From: an uncultured Prevotellaceae bacterium
GTDB lineage: Bacteria > Bacteroidota > Bacteroidia > Bacteroidales > Bacteroidaceae
Direction: 5' to 3'
NCBI GenBank assembly: GCA_947167515.1
Contig: CAMVIM010000006.1
Span: 62,001-126,000, forward strand
Length of the DNA: 64,000 nt
Shown: positions 22,544 through 31,578 of the stretch, one piece after another
Position numbering within the stretch: the stretch's first letter is position 1
Layout: each line of letters opens with the position of its first letter
Position numbers and translations under genes: made by a program
Notes under the pieces: generated by a model
What the model was told of the DNA's origin: nothing
Database searches by the model: none
Seen by the model: only the letters and a program-made list of their open reading frames with translations

Positions 22544-23245
22544 TCATTCCTCTTTCAGCAGGTCTGGACGTAAGGCTTTTGTGCGAGCAAGAGCCTGCTC
22601 ATATTCCCATTCCTTAATCTTCGCTTCATGGCCCGACAGCAGAATCTCTGGCACTGTCCAGGTTTCATCAGGACTGCTGACGGGATGATACTCTGCCGGT
22701 CGTGTATAGACGGGTGGTTCCAAGAGGTTGTCCTGAAACGAGTCGCTGAGCGCACTCTCCACATCACCTATCACGCCTGGAATGACCCTCACAATGGCAT
22801 CAGCCATCACTGCCGCCGCCAGTTCGCCACCCGTCAGCACGTAGTCGCCGATGCTAACTTCCTTCGTGATGAGGTGCTCCCTGATGCGGTAGTCGATGCC
22901 CTTGTAGTGTCCGCAGATGATGATGATATTCTCCTTCAGGCTCAATTCGTTAGCCATTGGCTGGTCGAACTTCTCGCCGTCTGGAGCCGTGAAGATGATT
23001 TCGTCATAGTCGCGCTCCGCCTTCAGCGCAGCGATGCAAGCATCCAGCGGTTGGCACTGAATCAGCATGCCAGCCGCACCGCCAAACGGGTAGTCATCCA
23101 CCCGCCGATGCTTGTCGGTGGTGTAGTCCCTCAGGTTATGTACATGTATTTCTGCCAGTCCTTTCTTCTGAGCACGTCCGAGAATGCTCTCTTGTGTAAA
23201 CGGTTCTATCAGTTCAGGAAGAACCGTGATGATGTCAATGCGCAT
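22544..23245 (-). CDS. trmD: tRNA (guanosine(37)-N1)-methyltransferase
   Basis: TrmD methylates G37 of tRNAs that have G at position 36, protecting the reading frame. The 233-residue protein begins [16 protein letters not shown]. It shows the SPOUT knot sequences [30 protein letters not shown] and [14 protein letters not shown], plus the C-terminal [10 protein letters not shown]. The frame is open well upstream of ATG 23245, but that stretch covers the promoter and a dispersed-type repeat, so 23245 is the start. It marks the left edge of the accessory island. Confidence 0.96.
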
Positions 23246-23271
23246 AAATGACCTTTTTCTATTTTCTGTGG

Positions 23272-23302
23272 CAAAGTTAGTGCAAATCGAGCGAAATACA
23301 AA
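23272..23302 (-). promoter_or_regulatory. Consensus promoter of trmD
   Basis: TTTG (23299-23302), exactly 19 nt, then TAACTTTG (23272-23279) on the minus strand, 27 nt before the trmD ATG. It is the best match to the Bacteroidetes consensus in the window and sits at the edge of a repeat-like intergenic element. Confidence 0.8.
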
Positions 23303-23437
23303 ATGAAAAAACATTTTTTCATTTTTATTTCCGAGATGCAGCCTAAGTTCGACGTAGCCAACGTACGAATAAGCGAGGATAACACAACTGTCCTCCGACT
23401 TTTTTCTTCCATTAGACTCTTGAGTGTGCTTCAATAG
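23280..23437. repeat. Likely dispersed intergenic element upstream of trmD
   Basis: The stretch from the trmD promoter outward contains blocks such as GCAAATCGAGCGAAATAC and AACGTACGAATAAGCGAGG. I recall similar sequence upstream of many Bacteroidales genes, but only one copy is in this window, so its repetitive nature rests on memory and is not shown here. Confidence 0.35.
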
Positions 23438-23508
23438 AGTCTCTTCCGTAACCTCTAAACCGACCTCGACGACATCTAGCGCTCCTTGGGTTCGTAGTAG
23501 TAAGGTTG
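23438..23508. repeat. Left flank repeat of the DinJ/PIN module (23-bp units)
   Basis: Consecutive 23-nt units start at 23438 (AGTCTCTTCCGTAACCTC...) and 23461 (CGACCTCGACGACATC...), then CGTAGTAGTAAGGTTG at 23493-23508. The same blocks recur in the same order at 24386-24536 after the PIN gene, so they flank the module as direct repeats. Confidence 0.7.
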
Positions 23509-23569
23509 AAGTTGATGGCAAAATAATAAAAAATTAAGTCAAGATGATGGCAGATTGGGATAAAATACT

Positions 23570-23577
23570 TAACTTTG
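23570..23577 (+). promoter_or_regulatory. -7 box (TAACTTTG) for the DinJ/PIN pair
   Basis: TAnnTTTG match 23 nt before the ATG at 23600. No TTTG at the -33 position. Confidence 0.45.
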
Positions 23578-23599
23578 TGGCATCAAAAAGAATAAGATT

Positions 23600-23908
23600 A
23601 TGGCACAAGTATCTATGACAGTCCGTATGGACTCAGGCATTAAGGCAGCTTTTGACAAACTCTGTGCTCAGTTTGGTATGAGTGCAAATGCCGCAATGAA
23701 CATCTTTGCGAATGCAGTGGTCATGCAACGCAGAATTCCTTTTGAGATCAAGGCCGCTCCTGAGCAGAAATCTATGAGTGCGTTGGAGGCATTCCATGCC
23801 CTTAGGACAGAGGCGCAAGAGAATGGATTGCAAGAGATGACACTAGATGAGATTAATGAAGAAATCCGTCTTGCCCGTGAAGAAAGACGCTCAAAAATAC
23901 AGAAGTGA
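23600..23908 (+). CDS. RelB/DinJ-family antitoxin
   Basis: The 102-residue protein has an N-terminal ribbon-helix-helix DNA-binding part typical of DinJ: VSMTVRMDSGIKAAFDKLC, FGMSANAAMNIFANAVV, then RRIPFEI. The C-terminal half is charged and helical (MTLDEINEEIRLAREERR), as expected for the toxin-wrapping segment. It likely represses its own promoter and neutralises the toxin encoded next. Its stop overlaps the PIN gene start by 4 nt. The usual DinJ partner is a YafQ-type ribonuclease, so pairing with a PIN toxin is notable. Confidence 0.85.
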   Translation: MAQVSMTVRMDSGIKAAFDKLCAQFGMSANAAMNIFANAVVMQRRIPFEIKAAPEQKSMSALEAFHALRTEAQENGLQEMTLDEINEEIRLAREERRSKIQK

Positions 23909-24318
23909 TGATTTACGCTGTCATTGACACGAACGTTTTTGTCTCTGCTTTGTTCTCCAAAAACATCAACGCTGCCACTGTAAAAGTGTTGGACGCGATA
24001 TTTCAAGGGGATATTGTACCTTTGTTCAACGACGAGATTATCGCAGAATATGAAGATGTCCTTCGACGTTCGAAATTTCATTTCACACCCTCTTTGGTCA
24101 ATAAGTATTTGAAAAGTATCTGCAAATTGGGAATTTCTTCAGAACGTGTTAAGAGTGATGAAGTTTTTCCAGATAAAGATGATGTGGTGTTTTATGGGGT
24201 TGCCCTTTCTAAAGAGGATGCTTACCTTATAACTGGCAATATAAAACACTTCCCTAAGACTCCAATTGTTGTCACGCCTGCTGAGATGATTGAGATTCTG
24301 CTGAGGGATAAACGATAA
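23905..24318 (+). CDS. PIN-domain toxin
   Basis: The 137-residue ribonuclease-like protein matches the PIN family labelled as putative toxin-antitoxin components. Acidic metal ligands are visible: D8 in YAVIDTNVFVSALF, E45/E49 in LFNDEIIAEYEDVL, D90-D92 in FPDKDDVVFYGVAL, and an aspartate region ending in AYLITGNIKHFPK. PIN toxins cut tRNA, rRNA or mRNA. It is translationally coupled to the DinJ-like antitoxin and ends before a clear terminator. The key acidic residues look intact, so it is probably active. Confidence 0.85.
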   Translation: MMIYAVIDTNVFVSALFSKNINAATVKVLDAIFQGDIVPLFNDEIIAEYEDVLRRSKFHFTPSLVNKYLKSICKLGISSERVKSDEVFPDKDDVVFYGVALSKEDAYLITGNIKHFPKTPIVVTPAEMIEILLRDKR

Positions 24319-24334
24319 CCTTTATTTAACCCAT

Positions 24335-24366
24335 GAAGCCTGTCCATTTGGATGGGCTTCTTTGTT
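24335..24366 (+). terminator. Intrinsic terminator of the DinJ/PIN module
   Basis: GAAGCC (24335-24340) pairs with GGCTTC (24355-24360), with an inner TCCA/TGGA pairing. It is followed by TTTGTTT. Confidence 0.8.
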
Positions 24367-24385
24367 TGTGGATTCTTCATTTGAA

Positions 24386-24565
24386 AGTCTCTTCCGTAAC
24401 CTCTAAATCGACGTCGTCAACATCGACCAACCGACCTCGACGACATCGATTTGGTGGAGATTGTTTTCTCCCCCCTTGACCTTTGGTGTTCCTTTCCTCT
24501 TCCTTACTTGCTCCTGGACTCGTAGTAGTAAGGTTGTAGGTTCGTAGTGGTAAGGTGGTAGGTTG
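24386..24565. repeat. Right flank repeat of the DinJ/PIN module (23-bp units plus one)
   Basis: Units start at 24386 (AGTCTCTTCCGTAACCTC...), 24409 (CGACGTCGTCAACATCGA...) and 24432 (CGACCTCGACGACATCGA...), all 23 nt apart. Relative to the left flank, the middle unit is an exact one-unit gain. Further on, CGTAGTAGTAAGGTTG (24521-24536) is followed by a related copy starting at 24543. Confidence 0.7.
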
Positions 24566-24890
24566 TTTGTAGTTGTTAACTGTCAACTCAAATAGTTCTT
24601 CCATTTTTTTATCTCGCGATTCTTGCATCCCGCATGGCAACTCCTAATTCCTAATTGGCTTCGCCGAAGATGCTCACGCTCGGCATAGTTCAAACAAGTT
24701 TGACCTCTGCACTCGCTCAACCGCATCTTTCCTAACTCCTGAGAACTAAACTGTCAATTGTCAACTGTCAATTAGCTAACTCCTAACTGCAAAGGTTAAA
24801 GTTAATAGGTTAATTGGTTAATTTCATTTGCTTCCCTTCGCTTTTTTTCATTTTTTCCTTCTCTCTTTCTTTCATTTAAAAATTATTGTG
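24566..24890. repeat. Gene-free stretch with foldback and short tandem motifs
   Basis: No gene is visible. A foldback at about 24664-24735 has AAGATGC near one end and GCATCTT near the other, with CAAACAAGTTTG in its centre. At about 24755-24800 there are heptamer-like repeats of the AACTGTC/AATTGTC type. A pyrimidine-rich tract precedes the promoter box at 24891. Confidence 0.45.
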
Positions 24891-24898
24891 TACCTTTG
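24891..24898 (+). promoter_or_regulatory. -7 box (TACCTTTG) of the structured RNA / restriction operon
   Basis: A strong TAnnTTTG match. Transcription would start near 24905, giving a leader of about 290 nt before the first ATG at 25197. No exact TTTG lies at -33. Confidence 0.55.
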
Positions 24899-24904
24899 CG
24901 ATTG

Positions 24905-25199
24905 AGTTGCCTGCCTCTTGGCGAAGAGCGGCAGCCCCTTATTGGAAATAATAACAGCATTAGCTGATTATTCGGTACATCTTGAAACGTAGGAAATTTC
25001 AAAGATAATTCATACCTTGATAGTCACTAATGTCTGCACCGTTAGGTGTGGACATGACTTATCTTGTATGAATGGGCAATTCCTACGGCCTCAAGATGTG
25101 GATAAGACGGTTCACGCCTTTTTCTATGTCTTGAAGCCATGCGGTTTTGCCTGTTAATGCACCTGATAGGTCAGCAATGCCCAAAACCTATCGTGCATG
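24905..25199 (+). ncRNA. Highly structured leader or non-coding RNA of unknown family
   Basis: A 5' hairpin (24911-24934) has a CTGCC/GGCAG stem. A nested central hairpin spans 24977-25099, with helices 24977-24985:25091-25099, 24989-24995:25080-25086, 25008-25015:25066-25073, 25020-25026:25055-25062 and 25030-25040:25045-25055 (GUUA loop). At the 3' end, a 13-bp stem (25157-25171 with 25186-25198) includes the first two bases of the ATG at 25197. It competes with GGTTTTG:CAAAACC (25143-25149:25182-25188). It does not show the signature sequences of tmRNA, RNase P RNA or SRP RNA. It could be a cis-acting switch or a functional RNA of the defence operon. Confidence 0.6.
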
Positions 25200-28100
25200 A
25201 ATAATACACCAATCTCTTCCCATTTCTTCACTAACCGAGAAGGGAACACTTTAATGAGTGAATTTGAGGGCATTCTATCCAATAACCCCCAAGTGAAAAA
25301 TCTTGATGCCGTCGTGGGCTTCCTACGTGCATCAGGCTATTTTACCTTGCGTCCTTTTCTTGACGGCATCAACAAGGTGCGTGTGCTCATTGGCATCGAT
25401 GTCGATAAGTACATTGCACGTGCTGCCCAACGTGGTGTGCTCTTTATGGGTGAAGAAGAGAAGGTGAAAGAGGACTGCATGCGCCAATTTCGGGAAGACA
25501 TAGAGAGTTCAGATTACACCAAACAGGTGGAAGATGGCATGTTGCAGATGTTTCAGGATTTGTTGGATGGCAAACTGGAACTTCGTGCCCATCCTTCCAA
25601 GAAGATACATGCCAAGTTCTACATTCTTTATCCAGACAATTTCAACCAGCATTCGTTTGGTGCAGCCATAACCGGTAGCAGCAACCTGAGCGGCAATGGA
25701 TTGGGCATCACGAAAGAAAAGCAGTACGAGTTCAACGTGAAGCTCACTCGCTACGATGATGTGCAGTTTGCCAAAGAAGAGTTTGAACTGCTTTGGGAAG
25801 AAGCTAAGGATGTACCCATCACGGCAGTTGATTTCAAACAGGCAATGGATGACACCTACCTGAAAGGTGATGTGACTCCTTATGAACTATACATGAAGAT
25901 GCTGATGGAGTTTTTCAGTGACCGAGTGCTGGCTATTGATATGGATGACCCCTTCGACATGCCAGAGGGTTATGACAAATATGAGTATCAGATGGATGCT
26001 GTGATAGAGGGCTATCAGAAACTGCTTCGCTATGATGGCTTCTTCTTGGCAGATGTGGTGGGTCTTGGAAAAACAGTGATTGCCACCATGATAGCCAAAA
26101 AGTTTCTGATAGAGAATGGACGTGACAACACAAAGATTCTGGTGGTATATCCTCCTGCTGTCGAACAGAACTGGAAAGCCACGTTTAGGGATTTCGGCAT
26201 TGATAAATACACGCAGTTTGTTTCCAATGGCAGTTTGAGCAAGATTCTCGACACCAACAACTATGACTACTGGAATGCAGATGATTTCGACCTTATACTG
26301 GTGGATGAAGCACACAAATTCCGCAACCACACCACTGGTGCTTTCAAAGACCTTCAGGAAATATGCAAGATGCCCCGTGTGGAAACTGGTTACATTCCTG
26401 GCTACAAGAAGAAGGTGATGCTGATTTCTGCCACACCTATGAACAACTCGCTGTCTGACATCTACTATCAGATTACAATGTTCCAAGACCCCCGTCAATG
26501 CACCATCGATGGCGTACCCAATCTGACCAGCTTTTTTGCGCCTCTCGAAGTGATGTTCAAGAAACTGCGGAAGGACAAGGAGTTCGATGTGGCAAAATTC
26601 AAGAAACTGTCAGAGAAGGTGCGTGAAACCATCATCAAGCCCATCACGGTTCGCCGTACACATTCCGACATTGAAAGTGTGGAACGATACAGCAAAGATG
26701 TCAAGAGATTTCCCAAAGTGGCAGAACCTATCAAGAAGGAATATGAACTGAATGACCACATGGCGAGCCTTTTTGATGAAGCCATGCAAACGCTTGACAA
26801 AAAACTGACTTATGCCCGCTATCAAGCCATTGCTTATCTGAAAGACGATGCTGCACCCGGTCTTTACGACAATGCCGAAACCATCAGCCGCAGTTTGGCT
26901 GGTATCCGAAAGAATGGCTTGGTGAAGCGGTTGGAGAGCAGTTTTCATGCCTTCAAGATTTCTGTGGATAATTTCCGCCAAGCCAACCAGAACATGCTTA
27001 CGATGTGGGAGAATGACCGCATCTTCATTGCACCGGACATGGACATCAATCAATTGTATGCCCAAGGTTACACGGATGATGAAATAGAGGAAAAACTGAA
27101 CGAGAAAGCGGAAGTCAACCCCAAGAATGCAGTCTTTTCTCGCAAGGATTTCAAACCTGAATACATCGACCTGCTCCGTCAAGACCAGCAACTGCTCGAT
27201 GAGATGTGGTTGGAATGGGAATATATTGATGATAAGGATGACTCAAAGTTTGCCAAGTTTGAAGACTTGCTGAAACACGAACTCTTCAAAAAAGAACAGA
27301 ATCCCGAGGGAAAACTGGTCATCTTCTCTGAATCTGTGGACACGATAGAATATCTGGCGCGACGCATCAATCGCCCTGATGTGATGGTCATTTCTGCCCG
27401 CAATCGCAATCAGGAATTCAAGACCATCCGTGAGAACTTCGATGCCAACTGGAAAACGAAGAAGGATGAATACAACATCATCCTGACTTCCGATGTGTTG
27501 GCTGAAGGCGTCAACTTGCACCGCTCCAACATCATCATCAATTATGACACCCCTTGGAACGCCACAAGGCTTATGCAGCGCATCGGTCGTGTGAACCGTA
27601 TTGGTTCCAAATCAGACACCATCTATAATTACGTGTTCTATCCTTCCTCCAAAGGAAATGAGCAAATCAACCTGAAACAAATATCGCTCAGTAAGATTCA
27701 GACCTTCCACACCACATTCGGCGAGGACAATCAGATTTACTCCACAGAAGAAATCATTGACCGCGACCTCGACAAACTCTTCAAGCAGGGAATGAAGGAA
27801 GAAGAGGAAGACCGTAACTTGGAACTTCCTTTCTATGAGGAACTACGTGCCCTCTACCAGCAAAACCGCAAGGAGTACAAACGCATAGAGAAAATATCTC
27901 TGCGCAGTCGCACCGGCAGAGAGAAACGTGATGTGGAAGGTGTCACCCTTTCTGGCGATACGATGGTGTTCCTCAAAACCAACTTCCGCAAAATCTTCTA
28001 TCTCGTGTCATACGAACAAGTGCGCGACCTTTCTGTGCTCGATGCCCTCAACTATTTCAAGGCATCACCTGAAGAAAAGGCTGTGCCTCGCATCGAACAA

Positions 28101-28514
28101 CATCATGACCATGTGGAACGTGCCGTCAAGGAATTCCAGCAGAGCAAGGTGCGTGAGATTCAGGAGGAGGAAGCCTCACAACGGCAAAGGAATAATTTCG
28201 GAGCCCAAGTGACGACGGCTGTCAGCTTGCTCAATAAAATCATGCCATTCTTTGCAGAAGACCCTGACACGCAAGTGAAAGTAAACCAACTGAAATCATT
28301 GGTGGAACGAGGCACTATCACAGACATCGCCAAACGCTTGCAACGAATTCAGAAAGACCTCCAGCGTCAAGGTGGCAAGGTGAAAATTACCTTCGAAGAA
28401 GCGAAAGCGGAAATCCAAGCGATGGCGAACAAATACAACGCCTACTACCGAGACACTCAGCATGCAGAGGAAGAGTCGGATGCAAACATCATCCTTTCAG
28501 AAAGTTTTCAATAA
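25197..28514 (+). CDS. PLD-nuclease / SNF2-type helicase subunit of a restriction-like system
   Basis: The 1105-residue protein fuses two modules. Residues 1-210 form a phospholipase-D-type nuclease with the HAK of an HxK motif at 138-140 and N163 in GSSNLS. One HxK set per chain implies a dimeric active site, as in BfiI. Residues about 260-830 are a superfamily 2 motor: Walker A VVGLGKT (287-293), DEAH (370-373), SATP (411-414), then SDVLAEGVNL and QRIGRVNR (794-801). The last 270 residues are helical. It likely moves along and cuts unmodified DNA. An alternative start is the ATG at 25254. It is followed after 22 nt by the methyltransferase gene. The arrangement resembles a type ISP enzyme split in two. 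Confidence 0.85.
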   Translation: MNNTPISSHFFTNREGNTLMSEFEGILSNNPQVKNLDAVVGFLRASGYFTLRPFLDGINKVRVLIGIDVDKYIARAAQRGVLFMGEEEKVKEDCMRQFREDIESSDYTKQVEDGMLQMFQDLLDGKLELRAHPSKKIHAKFYILYPDNFNQHSFGAAITGSSNLSGNGLGITKEKQYEFNVKLTRYDDVQFAKEEFELLWEEAKDVPITAVDFKQAMDDTYLKGDVTPYELYMKMLMEFFSDRVLAIDMDDPFDMPEGYDKYEYQMDAVIEGYQKLLRYDGFFLADVVGLGKTVIATMIAKKFLIENGRDNTKILVVYPPAVEQNWKATFRDFGIDKYTQFVSNGSLSKILDTNNYDYWNADDFDLILVDEAHKFRNHTTGAFKDLQEICKMPRVETGYIPGYKKKVMLISATPMNNSLSDIYYQITMFQDPRQCTIDGVPNLTSFFAPLEVMFKKLRKDKEFDVAKFKKLSEKVRETIIKPITVRRTHSDIESVERYSKDVKRFPKVAEPIKKEYELNDHMASLFDEAMQTLDKKLTYARYQAIAYLKDDAAPGLYDNAETISRSLAGIRKNGLVKRLESSFHAFKISVDNFRQANQNMLTMWENDRIFIAPDMDINQLYAQGYTDDEIEEKLNEKAEVNPKNAVFSRKDFKPEYIDLLRQDQQLLDEMWLEWEYIDDKDDSKFAKFEDLLKHELFKKEQNPEGKLVIFSESVDTIEYLARRINRPDVMVISARNRNQEFKTIRENFDANWKTKKDEYNIILTSDVLAEGVNLHRSNIIINYDTPWNATRLMQRIGRVNRIGSKSDTIYNYVFYPSSKGNEQINLKQISLSKIQTFHTTFGEDNQIYSTEEIIDRDLDKLFKQGMKEEEEDRNLELPFYEELRALYQQNRKEYKRIEKISLRSRTGREKRDVEGVTLSGDTMVFLKTNFRKIFYLVSYEQVRDLSVLDALNYFKASPEEKAVPRIEQHHDHVERAVKEFQQSKVREIQEEEASQRQRNNFGAQVTTAVSLLNKIMPFFAEDPDTQVKVNQLKSLVERGTITDIAKRLQRIQKDLQRQGGKVKITFEEAKAEIQAMANKYNAYYRDTQHAEEESDANIILSESFQ

Positions 28515-28536: not shown

Positions 28537-31500
28537 ATGAACTACAAGGAAATCATCGAATCACGCTATAACCGCCAGAACTGGCAGACACTCCTTCACG
28601 ATATATTTGGAGGCAAGGTGAAGTTTTGGAGCGCTCCCTACGAAATCGACACCAACAGCAACCTATCAAAGCAAACCCTATGGTTGGGCACTATTACATT
28701 GACAGATGGTGAAACCATTTCAATCTATGAAGTGGAATTGGCCGAAAGCGTTGACATAGAGCGCAATCGTCGAGGCATTCGCGACATGCTGCTGACCGAT
28801 TGGAGAACCAGCGGCAGTGCAGGAGCTTTCATGTTCTGTTACCGCAAGAATGAGAGTGTGCTTCGTTTCTCGTATGTCAGCGAATCTTGGAACTTTGCAG
28901 AGGATGGTACATACAAGAAAGAATCAACCGACACCAAGCGTTTCACTTACCTCTTAGGTGAAGGGCATCGAAGTCGCACAGCCATTCAGCAATTCGAGAA
29001 ACTGCGTGACAGCAGCCAGACATTGAAAGACCTCACAAAAGCCTTCTCGGTTGATGCTGTCAGCGATATGTTCTTCAAAGGCTACAAGCAGCAGTATGAG
29101 GACATTATCTTCTATGTGACTGGCAAACGGATGGTGAAGGTGGCAAACAAGTGGGAAGAACGACAAGAGGGCAAGCCTTGTGGTTCAATCTTGCAACAAT
29201 TCTCCCATTTTGCTAACCCTGAAAAGGCTGTTCGTGATTACGTGAAGAAGTTGATGGGAAGACTGGTGTTCCTTCAGTTCTTGCAAAAGAAAGGTTGGTT
29301 GGGCGTACCAGCCAATGCTGCATGGGGCGATGGCGATACAGAATTCATTCAGAATCTGTTTGCACAATGCCAAGACAAAGACCACTTCGTAGATAACGTC
29401 CTCGAACCGCTCTTCTATGACCTGAACACCGAACGTGAAGGTGACTTCTCTAAACTCTTAACTCTCAAGTCCCAACAAATAAAGGTACCCTACTTGAACG
29501 GTGGACTTTTCGAGCGTGAGGCAACAGACGAGGCAAACTTCCCCTTGCCTGCTAAGTATATGAAGAGTCTGCTCGACTTCTTCACCTCCTACAACTTCAC
29601 CATCGACGAGAACGACCCTGACGATGCCGAAGTGGGCGTTGACCCAGAAATGTTGGGACGCATCTTCGAGAACCTGCTGGAAGACAACAAGGACAAAGGA
29701 GCATTCTATACACCCAAGGAAATTGTCAGTTACATGTGTCGTGAAAGCCTCATCGCCTATTTGCAGACAGGCATTGAGGACGAAGCCACCAAAGAAGCCA
29801 TTCGTCAGTTTGTCACCACACACGACGTTGAGACTCTTGGCACGAATGACAAATTCCGCCAACAGGTGGACGAGGCACTGAAAAATGTCAAGATTTGTGA
29901 CCCCGCCATTGGCTCTGGTGCCTTCCCTATGGGCTTGCTCAAAGAACTTTTCCTCTGCCGCACCGCCCTCGAAGGCATCAGTCAACACCAAGCCGCAGCC
30001 ATCAAGAAGCACATCATCCAGCAGAACATCTATGGTGTTGACATTGAGCGTGGTGCTGTTGACATCGCCCGTCTTCGTTTCTGGCTTTCCCTGATTGTGG
30101 ATGAAGAAACGCCACAAGCATTGCCCAACCTCGACTTCAAAATCATGCAGGGAAATTCGTTGTTGGAGCAATACAAAGGTGTTGACTTTTCAAAAATTAC
30201 GGAGTTGAAATCAGAGAAGGAAGAAGGCGTACAACTCTCCTGGTTTGAAGAGGCGTTGGATGTTCTTCGCCTTGACTTACGCAAGAAGTTGGACGAATAC
30301 TACAACTGCACCGACCATCACGAAAAACAAGCACTTCGCAAAGACATCATAAATAATGTGAAGCAGCAACTCCGCGAACAAAGCATCAACATCAACTTTG
30401 GTGACCTCGACCTCTCAGGTAACAACCAGTTCTTCCTCTGGCACACTTGGTTCTATGATGTGTTCTCACAAGGTGGTTTTGATATAGTGATTGGGAATCC
30501 ACCGTATGTTCGTAGAACATCATTGCCTGATGAAGACAAACATCGCTATGAGAAGATATATACAAGTGCAACAAAACAATATGACTTGTATCTACTTTTT
30601 ATTGAAAAGGGGCTTAAAACACTTGCCATTAATGGAAGTTTATGCTATATAAATCCCATTCGTTTCTTTAATTCCGATTATGGGCAAGGTTGTCGAAAAT
30701 ACATAGTTAAAAATCATAAACTTAAAGCAATTTTAGACGTATCGCAAATTCCGGTATTTCGGAATGCGATGACATATCCCTGTGTACTCATGTTACAAGA
30801 AGGAAAAGATACAAACAACAATAATGACATATTGTATCGAAGACTTTTTGATTTAAAGAATCTACAAGTAATTGATAAGGTTACACCAATTTTCACTAAG
30901 CAGAAAGAAATTGAAACAGATAGAGAGTTCAGGTTTATCGTTGATGTTAAACCAGAACTACGCTTATTAATAGAGAAGATTGATTCCAAAGGACACCCCA
31001 TATCGTCCTTATTTGACATCGCGCGTGGCCTTGCAAATAGCAAGGTCGATTTTGAAGGGAGAATGTACCAAGCACTAAAATCGACAAATGTGAGAAGGTA
31101 CTTCATTGAAGGTGAACCTAAAAGAATAAATACTGATTATGCTTATATTTTCAAATACCCAATGATAATCCTTCCACGGACAGTCGAATATCTCCAAGCC
31201 ATGATAAAGGAAGAGAACATTATCTGTCTTGATAGAATATACTATCTAACTCCTAAGGTTAAGATGAATTTACTATATGCTTTAGGTATCATTAACTCAT
31301 CTTTGACCAATTTTTGGTTTGAGTATTACTATAAAACGACAAAAGTATCAGGAAATTTTTTTGATTTGAATGGCAACCAAATTGGTTCGATTCCAATACC
31401 TTTTGCTTCATCTTCTCAACAACAACCAATCATTAATTGGGTCAACCAGATTCTTTCTGCCAAGAAAGAAAATCCTTCAGCCGACACCTCCTCACTCGAA

Positions 31501-31578
31501 TCCGAAATCGACTGTCTTGTCTATCAACTCTACGGCTTGACAGAAGAAGAAATCAAAATAGTAGATGGGGAATATTAA
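28537..31578 (+). CDS. Eco57I-like adenine-specific DNA methyltransferase with specificity domain
   Basis: In this 1013-residue protein, residues 1-370 are helical and possibly contact the motor subunit. The catalytic part carries KGAFYTPKEIV (387-397), the SAM-binding DPAIGSGAF (455-463) and catalytic NPPY (654-657), the N6-adenine type. Residues about 660-950 should be the target-recognition domain, followed by a conserved C-terminal helix (SLESEIDCLVYQLYGLTEEE). Methylation would mark host DNA against the PLD/helicase subunit encoded just upstream. From about 30480 to 31430 the DNA is clearly more AT-rich than before or after, which suggests that the specificity segment was exchanged. Confidence 0.9.
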   Translation: MNYKEIIESRYNRQNWQTLLHDIFGGKVKFWSAPYEIDTNSNLSKQTLWLGTITLTDGETISIYEVELAESVDIERNRRGIRDMLLTDWRTSGSAGAFMFCYRKNESVLRFSYVSESWNFAEDGTYKKESTDTKRFTYLLGEGHRSRTAIQQFEKLRDSSQTLKDLTKAFSVDAVSDMFFKGYKQQYEDIIFYVTGKRMVKVANKWEERQEGKPCGSILQQFSHFANPEKAVRDYVKKLMGRLVFLQFLQKKGWLGVPANAAWGDGDTEFIQNLFAQCQDKDHFVDNVLEPLFYDLNTEREGDFSKLLTLKSQQIKVPYLNGGLFEREATDEANFPLPAKYMKSLLDFFTSYNFTIDENDPDDAEVGVDPEMLGRIFENLLEDNKDKGAFYTPKEIVSYMCRESLIAYLQTGIEDEATKEAIRQFVTTHDVETLGTNDKFRQQVDEALKNVKICDPAIGSGAFPMGLLKELFLCRTALEGISQHQAAAIKKHIIQQNIYGVDIERGAVDIARLRFWLSLIVDEETPQALPNLDFKIMQGNSLLEQYKGVDFSKITELKSEKEEGVQLSWFEEALDVLRLDLRKKLDEYYNCTDHHEKQALRKDIINNVKQQLREQSININFGDLDLSGNNQFFLWHTWFYDVFSQGGFDIVIGNPPYVRRTSLPDEDKHRYEKIYTSATKQYDLYLLFIEKGLKTLAINGSLCYINPIRFFNSDYGQGCRKYIVKNHKLKAILDVSQIPVFRNAMTYPCVLMLQEGKDTNNNNDILYRRLFDLKNLQVIDKVTPIFTKQKEIETDREFRFIVDVKPELRLLIEKIDSKGHPISSLFDIARGLANSKVDFEGRMYQALKSTNVRRYFIEGEPKRINTDYAYIFKYPMIILPRTVEYLQAMIKEENIICLDRIYYLTPKVKMNLLYALGIINSSLTNFWFEYYYKTTKVSGNFFDLNGNQIGSIPIPFASSSQQQPIINWVNQILSAKKENPSADTSSLESEIDCLVYQLYGLTEEEIKIVDGEY

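Follow-up and report, generated by a model that had tools for sequence, protein, structure and literature searches.

A large structured RNA leader recurring ahead of restriction-modification and surface-type genes in Bacteroidota: a probable family of transcription attenuators

The question raised by this locus is what a large structured RNA does directly in front of a restriction-type operon, and whether it belongs to that operon alone. The window, i.e. the whole 64,000-nucleotide (nt) stretch analyzed here (uncultured Prevotellaceae bacterium, contig CAMVIM010000006.1, positions 62,001 to 126,000), encodes a PLD-like/SNF2 helicase protein of 1105 amino acids (25197..28514) followed by an Eco57I/type IIG-like N6 methyltransferase of 1013 amino acids (28537..31578), both on the plus strand, as are all window features given below. 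An earlier note, made from the sequence alone, had placed a large structured RNA leader directly before this operon, and the claim was borne out both by membership in a covariance family and by predicted folding energy: positions 24900-25260 fold at -124.3 kcal/mol whereas 100 dinucleotide-shuffled versions average -86.1, and no shuffle reaches so low a value (z -7.8). The window leader is one copy of a large structured RNA family that recurs in Bacteroidota and seems to be undescribed. On sequence comparison, it is most likely (probability roughly 0.6) the 5' leader of the operon and part of a Bacteroidota-wide cis-regulatory RNA family, whose members would act as transcription attenuators with two near-equal states. 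To our knowledge, the regulation of restriction-modification (RM) systems in gut and rumen Bacteroidota has been little studied.

The recurrence of the element was established with searches of increasing reach. Rfam 15 (cmscan) gave no match in the window and none up to E 5 at the locus, while 18 related loci yielded nine matches up to E 3, every one under its gathering score. A DNA search found matches in 37 of 301 genomes of the taxonomic family, and in nearly all of the 25 neighbourhoods inspected the RNA lay just ahead of unrelated same-strand genes (L033 and L039 were partial; individual loci are cited by L numbers). A first covariance model, R1, built from 23 sequences (the window and 22 of the 25 blast loci, omitting the partial L033 and L039 and also L030, a near-copy of L029), had matches in 36 of the 45 genus genomes, 73 of 295 from the order and 13 of 296 from the phylum. 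When GTDB genomes were scanned with a DNA pattern, 90 stretches were returned; all of the 80 titles listed were Bacteroidota, including Prevotella, Bacteroides, Parabacteroides distasonis and Xylanibacter ruminicola, and an R1 match was present at 78 of these 80 loci (none at E 0.001 in L131 and L155). The second model, R2, was built from 117 sequences and recognized the element in 42 of the 45 genus genomes and in 31 of 296 sampled Bacteroidota genomes; at E 0.001 there were 19 matches in the window's genome and 8 in another (G233), the weakest at 35-38 bits. In the window the conserved RNA core matches R2 at 24953..25128 with 151.5 bits. Those R1 matches below about 65 bits that were read retain the motif order and pairings of the family, and dismissing this group as false positives was therefore rejected.

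The conserved fold was derived from covariation. In a sequence-only alignment of 155 non-redundant members (from 169 sequences after dropping copies of ≥95% identity), the top mutual-information pairs were those of helices P1b and P1a, which join two long-range strands, A and B. R1 had used the pairing of B with a further strand, C, as its closing helix; since covariation showed A:B and not B:C to be the main closing helix, R1 was replaced by R2. In the window, P1a is formed by strand A (24977..24983) with 25093-25099, and P1b by 24988-24995 with 25080-25087, the two 3' strands together making up strand B (25080..25099), which is also complementary to C. P1b is a pseudoknot, as its 5' strand comes from the loop of a short hairpin, S1 (GAAA:UUUC, 24984..25000). 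The long hairpin P2 (25008..25073), which corresponds to the nested hairpin of the earlier note, carries an apical helix of strand F (25033-25040) with part of strand D (25045-25052). A second pseudoknot, PK2, joins a 5' hairpin loop to an internal loop of P2 (CATTAG at 24958..24963 with CTAATG at 25027-25032).

Segment permutation gave z values of 44 for P1a (A5:B3), 24 for P1b (loop:B), 45 for outer P2, 10.3 for the P2 apical helix (F:D) and 11.9 for PK2, compared with -1.3 to 0.6 for six non-partner segment pairs used as a control. Alignment of 117 sequences (the window and 116 of 142 non-redundant members; 26, mostly close relatives, plus L190 with its large insertion, were dropped by hand) showed the main fold paired in 86.5% of cells versus 73.5% shuffled and 33-47% slid, with double changes in 42 of 49 pairs (32.3 shuffled) and a covariation score of 0.399 (0.194 shuffled, ≤0.109 slid). 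By helix, pairing reached 81.5% of cells in P1a, 96.2% in S1, 96.4% in P1b (double changes in 8 of 8 pairs), 98.7% in the P2 apical helix and 90.4% in PK2 (6 of 6 pairs). Compensatory covariation thus exceeds both shuffled and slid controls, as expected of a structured RNA. Four members (L190:7481-7724, L314, L316 and L324) are about 60 nt longer than the others, the L190 insertion sitting in P2.

A competition for strand D is also conserved. In the window D spans 25045..25063 (GGTGTGGA at 25045-25052 and CTTATC at 25058-25063); it is the 3' side of P2 and is complementary as well to strand E (25101..25118; GATAAG at 25101-25106 and TTCACGCC at 25111-25118), so that the two pairings are mutually exclusive. 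The D:E side helices were paired in 94.0% (E) and 81.9% (GATAAG) of cells, or 88.8% overall versus 84.7% shuffled and 34-58% slid, with double changes in 11 of 14 pairs (6.8 shuffled) and a score of 0.323 (0.242 shuffled, ≤0.130 slid); permutation z was 12.4 for D:E and 6.6 for CTTATC:GATAAG. At two adjacent positions of the P2 apical helix, wobble pairs predominate (U.G in 80 and G.U in 78 of 117 sequences), and the D bases concerned form Watson-Crick pairs with E (U-A in 96 and G-C in 100 of 117). A U-run abuts E (25119..25123 in the window); across family members a run of at least four T follows E in a weighted 86%, and at least five T in seven positions in 94%. Mutually exclusive pairings of which one is followed by a U-run are what an expression platform would show. 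The earlier note had proposed mutually exclusive pairings near the 3' end of the leader; such pairings exist, but the conserved competition lies further upstream, between P2 and strand E. Beyond the U-run, strand C (25124..25152) can pair with B once transcribed, with permutation z of 12.6 and 12.7 overall and 4.0 for a third B:C segment pair; this pairing is clear in Prevotella-type members (z 15.1) and lower in the middle tier (7.5).

Placement relative to promoters and genes was examined with R1. Among 150 strong members the motif TANNTTTG occurred 61-150 nt upstream of the model start in 129, compared with 10.3 expected from mononucleotide shuffles; the promoter box reported at the window was confirmed as a Bacteroidota-type TANNTTTG (TACCTTTG) at 24891..24898, with a putative transcription start near 24,903. 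The strong tier (R1 ≥62 bits) comprised 152 matches, 140 of them with ≥400 nt downstream, and a same-strand open reading frame (ORF) of ≥100 amino acids started -30 to +130 nt from the model end in 123 of these 140, compared with 19 of 143 when looking outward from the 5' side. The distance from model end to start codon had a median of 40.5 nt (interquartile range 35-44; 92 non-redundant cases). A close downstream ORF was absent from 17 of the 140 strong matches, and among all 175 model matches the downstream sequence was shorter than 400 nt in 14, and a further 21 had no ORF nearby. The element therefore has its own promoter motif and a same-strand gene at a fixed distance, as a cis-regulatory leader should.

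The ATG at 25197 is the start of the first gene, and PLD-helicase homologues in L016, L019, L230 and L252 begin at or near the equivalent residue; because of this agreement the leader should end at about 25,196, leaving the final ~60 bases of the interval originally described as coding sequence. The best estimates are thus about 24,903-25,196 (~290 nt) for the probable leader and 24,953-25,152 for its conserved core. Upstream of the core lies a variable 5' hairpin (24908..24935), for which fold and copy comparison indicate another sequence in other copies; at one locus (L039:8838-8889) only the promoter-proximal part and this hairpin are matched (query 10-61), beside an unrelated ORF, with no core matched. 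In a by-eye look for a leader-peptide short ORF, the AUG in P2 was missing in some members and loop lengths were variable. The first gene scored 143 bits against the DISARM (DrmD) profile NCBIfam NF038317, below the cut-off of 610.

The genes headed by the leader give a graded picture. Of 92 non-redundant strong-tier downstream genes, 74 fell in RM-type clusters, the labels being assigned per protein cluster from the Pfam/PADLOC hits of some members rather than of each: EcoRI-type methylase (18), type II methyltransferase PDLC03390 (13), MmeI type (12), PLD-helicase (10), HsdM (5+2), N6/MmeI (4), D12 (3+1), N6_N4 (3+1) and C5 (2). The remaining 18 of 92 lay outside RM clusters and included acyltransferases, an MBOAT protein, a DprA-like protein and BspA-type proteins. 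Of 17 downstream genes in the weak tier (<62 bits), two were RM and 15 lay outside RM clusters, so the association is not with RM genes only. No RM family was listed for the 17 proteins of the weaker-copy alignment A5, a set different from the 17-gene weak tier; of 108 non-redundant proteins, 107 are in alignments A4 and A5, the missing one, L213, being included in the RM tally. At intermediate loci of the genus (R2 75-84 bits, n=20; 18 loci scanned, as L336 and L344 duplicate L335 and L342), the 18 distinct proteins comprised three glycosyltransferases, two BspA-type repeat proteins, one MmeI_Mtase and one ResIII match (L332), the others being secreted, lipoprotein-like or unassigned; 16 of 18 were non-RM. 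Surface-type genes following the leader include acyltransferases (L032, L234, L240), the MBOAT gene (L237) and glycosyltransferases (L329, L338, L340), and BspA-type repeat genes follow it at L033, L265 and L341. As a control, no RM methyltransferase family was among the 25 commonest Pfam families of 117 upstream neighbours; one of the Pfam scans of downstream proteins likewise covers its 25 commonest families. The RM link is strong in the window's subfamily and weak across the whole family.

The link is also not one to the PLD-helicase/Eco57I-like pair, to which the earlier note had expected related RNAs to remain tied. Linkage to RM-type genes was found, but the leader also precedes EcoRI-type, MmeI-type, HsdM, D12, N6_N4 and C5 methyltransferases, and an RNA specific to PLD-helicases was rejected, as the same RNA heads many gene types. 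Homologous operons lacking the leader, and related RNAs lying mostly away from such genes, had been named as observations that would count against the proposed link, and each occurs in part. In the genus, the leader was found within 1.5 kb upstream of at least 12 of 65 strong N6_Mtase loci and the other 53 showed none in this count, in which presence is a lower bound, as it covers 65 of the matches listed (E ~5e-33 or better, one gene's second piece dropped) and the best 55 R2 matches; the weaker copies of the RNA are, as given above, mostly ahead of non-RM genes.

Several further observations concern individual copies and their neighbours. On the same contig, about 49 kb downstream of the window copy, L213 (G000:C6:136281-136458) heads an MmeI-like RM gene. 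Another copy in the window's genome (L023:5036-5641) precedes an MmeI-like gene that ends after ~100 codons and is followed by an acyltransferase-like ORF similar to that of L234. Two near-identical copies 1.1 kb apart (L267:1274-1444 and 2399-2563) each lie ahead of a similar secreted-protein gene. YhcG/DUF1016-type nuclease proteins accounted for seven of the 117 upstream neighbours (alignment A8).

Comparison of closely similar leaders revealed exchange between loci. Window positions 23145-25207 match L215, from another genome of the genus, at 95%, and from 24937 to 25207 the two are the same save for position 25161 and the P1b helix, in which both strands of three base pairs have changed (CGTAGG:CCTACG versus CCTGAG:CTCAGG; 24988-24995 with 25080-25087; L215:6007-6184). 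From 25208 the DNA stops aligning; the gene at L215 encodes a PLD-helicase with 35% identity across 813 alignment columns. With L025 the window shares 24947-25194 at 96.8% identity and neither flank, and many other locus pairs show 84-94% identity confined to the leader. Across loci, leaders 84-97% identical stand before unrelated or diverged genes, often with unrelated upstream flanks (L025, L215, L224/L233, L122/L150, L036/L235 and others), a pattern indicating that recombination moves leaders independently of the genes behind them. Among 29 pairs of close leaders, some of which represent the same locus retrieved twice or a single event compared with several relatives, double-changed base pairs numbered 15 of 226 in P1b, 3 of 184 in P1a, 5 of 175 in outer P2 and 0 of 230 in apical P2; the P1b cases with at least two double changes stem from approximately three independent events. 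Two-pair P1b swaps were also seen in L170/L186 and L158/L141. The idea that copies within one genome avoid a shared P1b code was rejected: with codes read by alignment to R2 (a regex search was too noisy), sharing was 17 of 359 within genomes and 211 of 4394 between, and because the within-genome figure is close to the permuted level (mean 17.3, P 0.55) it offers no evidence of orthogonality.

The transcription attenuator reading is favored by the competing D:F and D:E pairings of equal predicted stability, the U-run directly after E, the promoter motif, the family's fold, the fixed spacing to the start codon and, in the strong tier, the mostly RM-type genes that follow. RNA polymerase would start from the TANNTTTG promoter, and the transcript would fold into a compact domain of P1a, the S1/P1b pseudoknot, P2 and the loop-to-P2 pseudoknot. 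Once it emerges, E may pair with D in place of the 5' strand of P2, the D:E helix and adjoining U-run then forming a putative intrinsic terminator (OFF). A ligand, protein or elongation factor that stabilized the upstream domain would let P2 hold and leave E free, so that the operon would be transcribed (ON). The competing pairings are supported by sequence comparison; the transcription start, the termination and the direction of the switch are what we infer. A broader proposal is offered tentatively, at less than even odds: that the family is an orphan riboswitch or factor-read attenuator class, Bacteroidota-wide, in which one signal may switch varied RM systems and surface genes together and P1b may be a rapidly swapped, compensated 'code'.

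A number of points weigh against the attenuator reading. The mean predicted duplex energies on which the equality of states rests (-16.1 kcal/mol for F:D and -16.0 for D:E) disregard loops and context, and the shuffle controls leave the relatedness of the sequences in place. The gap between D and E is 58 nt in the window (37 nt inside CTTATC:GATAAG), which is long for a terminator loop, and a simple, standard terminator scan did not flag the long-loop D:E hairpin. The U-run is interrupted in some members, and E has a local partner in some (E5:E, z 11.3), although D:E is the more stable of the two in a weighted 96%. For the variable outer P2 helix, only 61.2% of cells are paired on the 117-row alignment, though its permutation z is 45, and the B:C pairing has z 1.0 in the distant tier, i.e. 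is absent there. The mixed downstream genes point to no particular ligand.

Termination in the leader could also be governed from outside it. The leader may be the target of a NusG-like antitermination factor, or itself a processive antiterminator RNA, the family then marking a surface and defence regulon. The copies ahead of glycosyltransferases, acyltransferases, the MBOAT protein and BspA-type genes are consistent with this, as are UpxY proteins, which reportedly prevent premature termination in the 5' leaders of Bacteroides fragilis capsule operons (PMC7819879), but the competing D:E pairing and U-run would already suffice as a cis switch, and we consider this possible though rather doubtful. 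An unlikely alternative is a discrete trans-acting small RNA of ~220 nt that ends at the U-run, with the gene expressed by read-through or separately: the promoter motif and U-run would bound such an RNA, and its core is conserved far beyond any single gene family, whereas the tight spacing to a same-strand start codon and, in the Prevotella-type group, the pairing of B with C past the U-run argue for a leader; some strong matches have no close ORF. That the conserved sequence is a DNA-level element (a repeat, recombination site or small mobile element) would fit the 19 matches in one genome and a leader that moves apart from its flanks, as in the window and L025, or in the window and L215, which share flank and leader to 25207 with diverged genes. 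The conserved adjacent G-U pairs, two pseudoknots, same-strand promoter motif and fixed start-codon spacing instead point to RNA, and no copy was found in IMG/VR with the DNA pattern or in phage and plasmid collections with blastn, both searches having lower sensitivity than the models; the idea of a phage or plasmid element was rejected on this account, and the DNA-level explanation in general is improbable.

The earlier note had suggested, as one possibility, a switch that delays the nuclease until methylation is established, and had described a 13-bp stem that hides the start codon. This stem (25158..25197) is present in the minimum-energy fold of the window, where it takes in the first base of the ATG at 25197; the probability of start-codon pairing with the upstream stretch is 0.61. 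The second of the two 3' stems described lies within coding sequence if the gene starts at 25197. Comparison of the window fold with family covariation showed the start-codon stem to be specific to the window: pairing with the -60..-11 stretch at P>0.5 was predicted in 9 of 92 leaders and the strands covary little (z 2.0), and a conserved start-codon stem was rejected. A delay of nuclease expression misfits the many copies in which the first gene is a methyltransferase, and also those heading glycosyltransferase, acyltransferase or BspA-type genes. A translational switch is considered slightly more improbable still than a DNA element. The least probable explanation, a very remote one, is that the RNA works as part of a new defence system, complexed with the PLD-helicase; the strong tier is indeed strongly linked to RM-type genes, but the same RNA precedes non-homologous proteins, surface genes included, and hence no single protein partner is encoded beside it.

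That one conserved leader heads unrelated RM systems time and again implies that DNA restriction is under a common layer of control. The copies at surface genes suggest that two phage-facing traits are controlled jointly. Were a common signal involved, defence and coat would be switched together. The family is compact, multi-copy and strongly covarying, making both signal and termination effect directly testable.

Such an RNA was not found described in the open full-text literature of PubMed Central (PMC), as judged by titles and the starts of abstracts and, for three motif-discovery papers, by passages on Bacteroid, Prevotella, restriction and similar words; subscription papers and supplements, which may describe the family, are outside this scope. 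The D12-methyl RNA motif (Weinberg et al. 2017) is reportedly a structured RNA that lies ahead of genes for D12 class DNA methyltransferases, and leaders of the present family precede D12-type genes at L036, L038 and L042; the scanned D12 loci (L012, L014, L018) had no Rfam match, Rfam's holding of the D12-methyl motif being unchecked. EAR is a processive antiterminator RNA, structured, that changes termination. The put RNA, another processive antiterminator, resembles the present family as a structured RNA altering termination; the family differs from put and EAR in that the competing D:E pairing sits inside the element. Leaders controlled by UpxY share with it an origin in Bacteroidota, premature termination in a 5' leader (here putative) and surface-gene targets (PMC7819879). 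C proteins regulate RM expression (PMC3695507); that control is protein-based and acts within one RM system, whereas here one RNA family heads many unrelated systems. Orphan riboswitch and attenuator leaders have in common with the family a pseudoknotted conserved domain, competing pairing, a U-run before the gene and many copies on diverse genes, and the family differs from them in matching no Rfam family and in having a strong tier that precedes RM genes.

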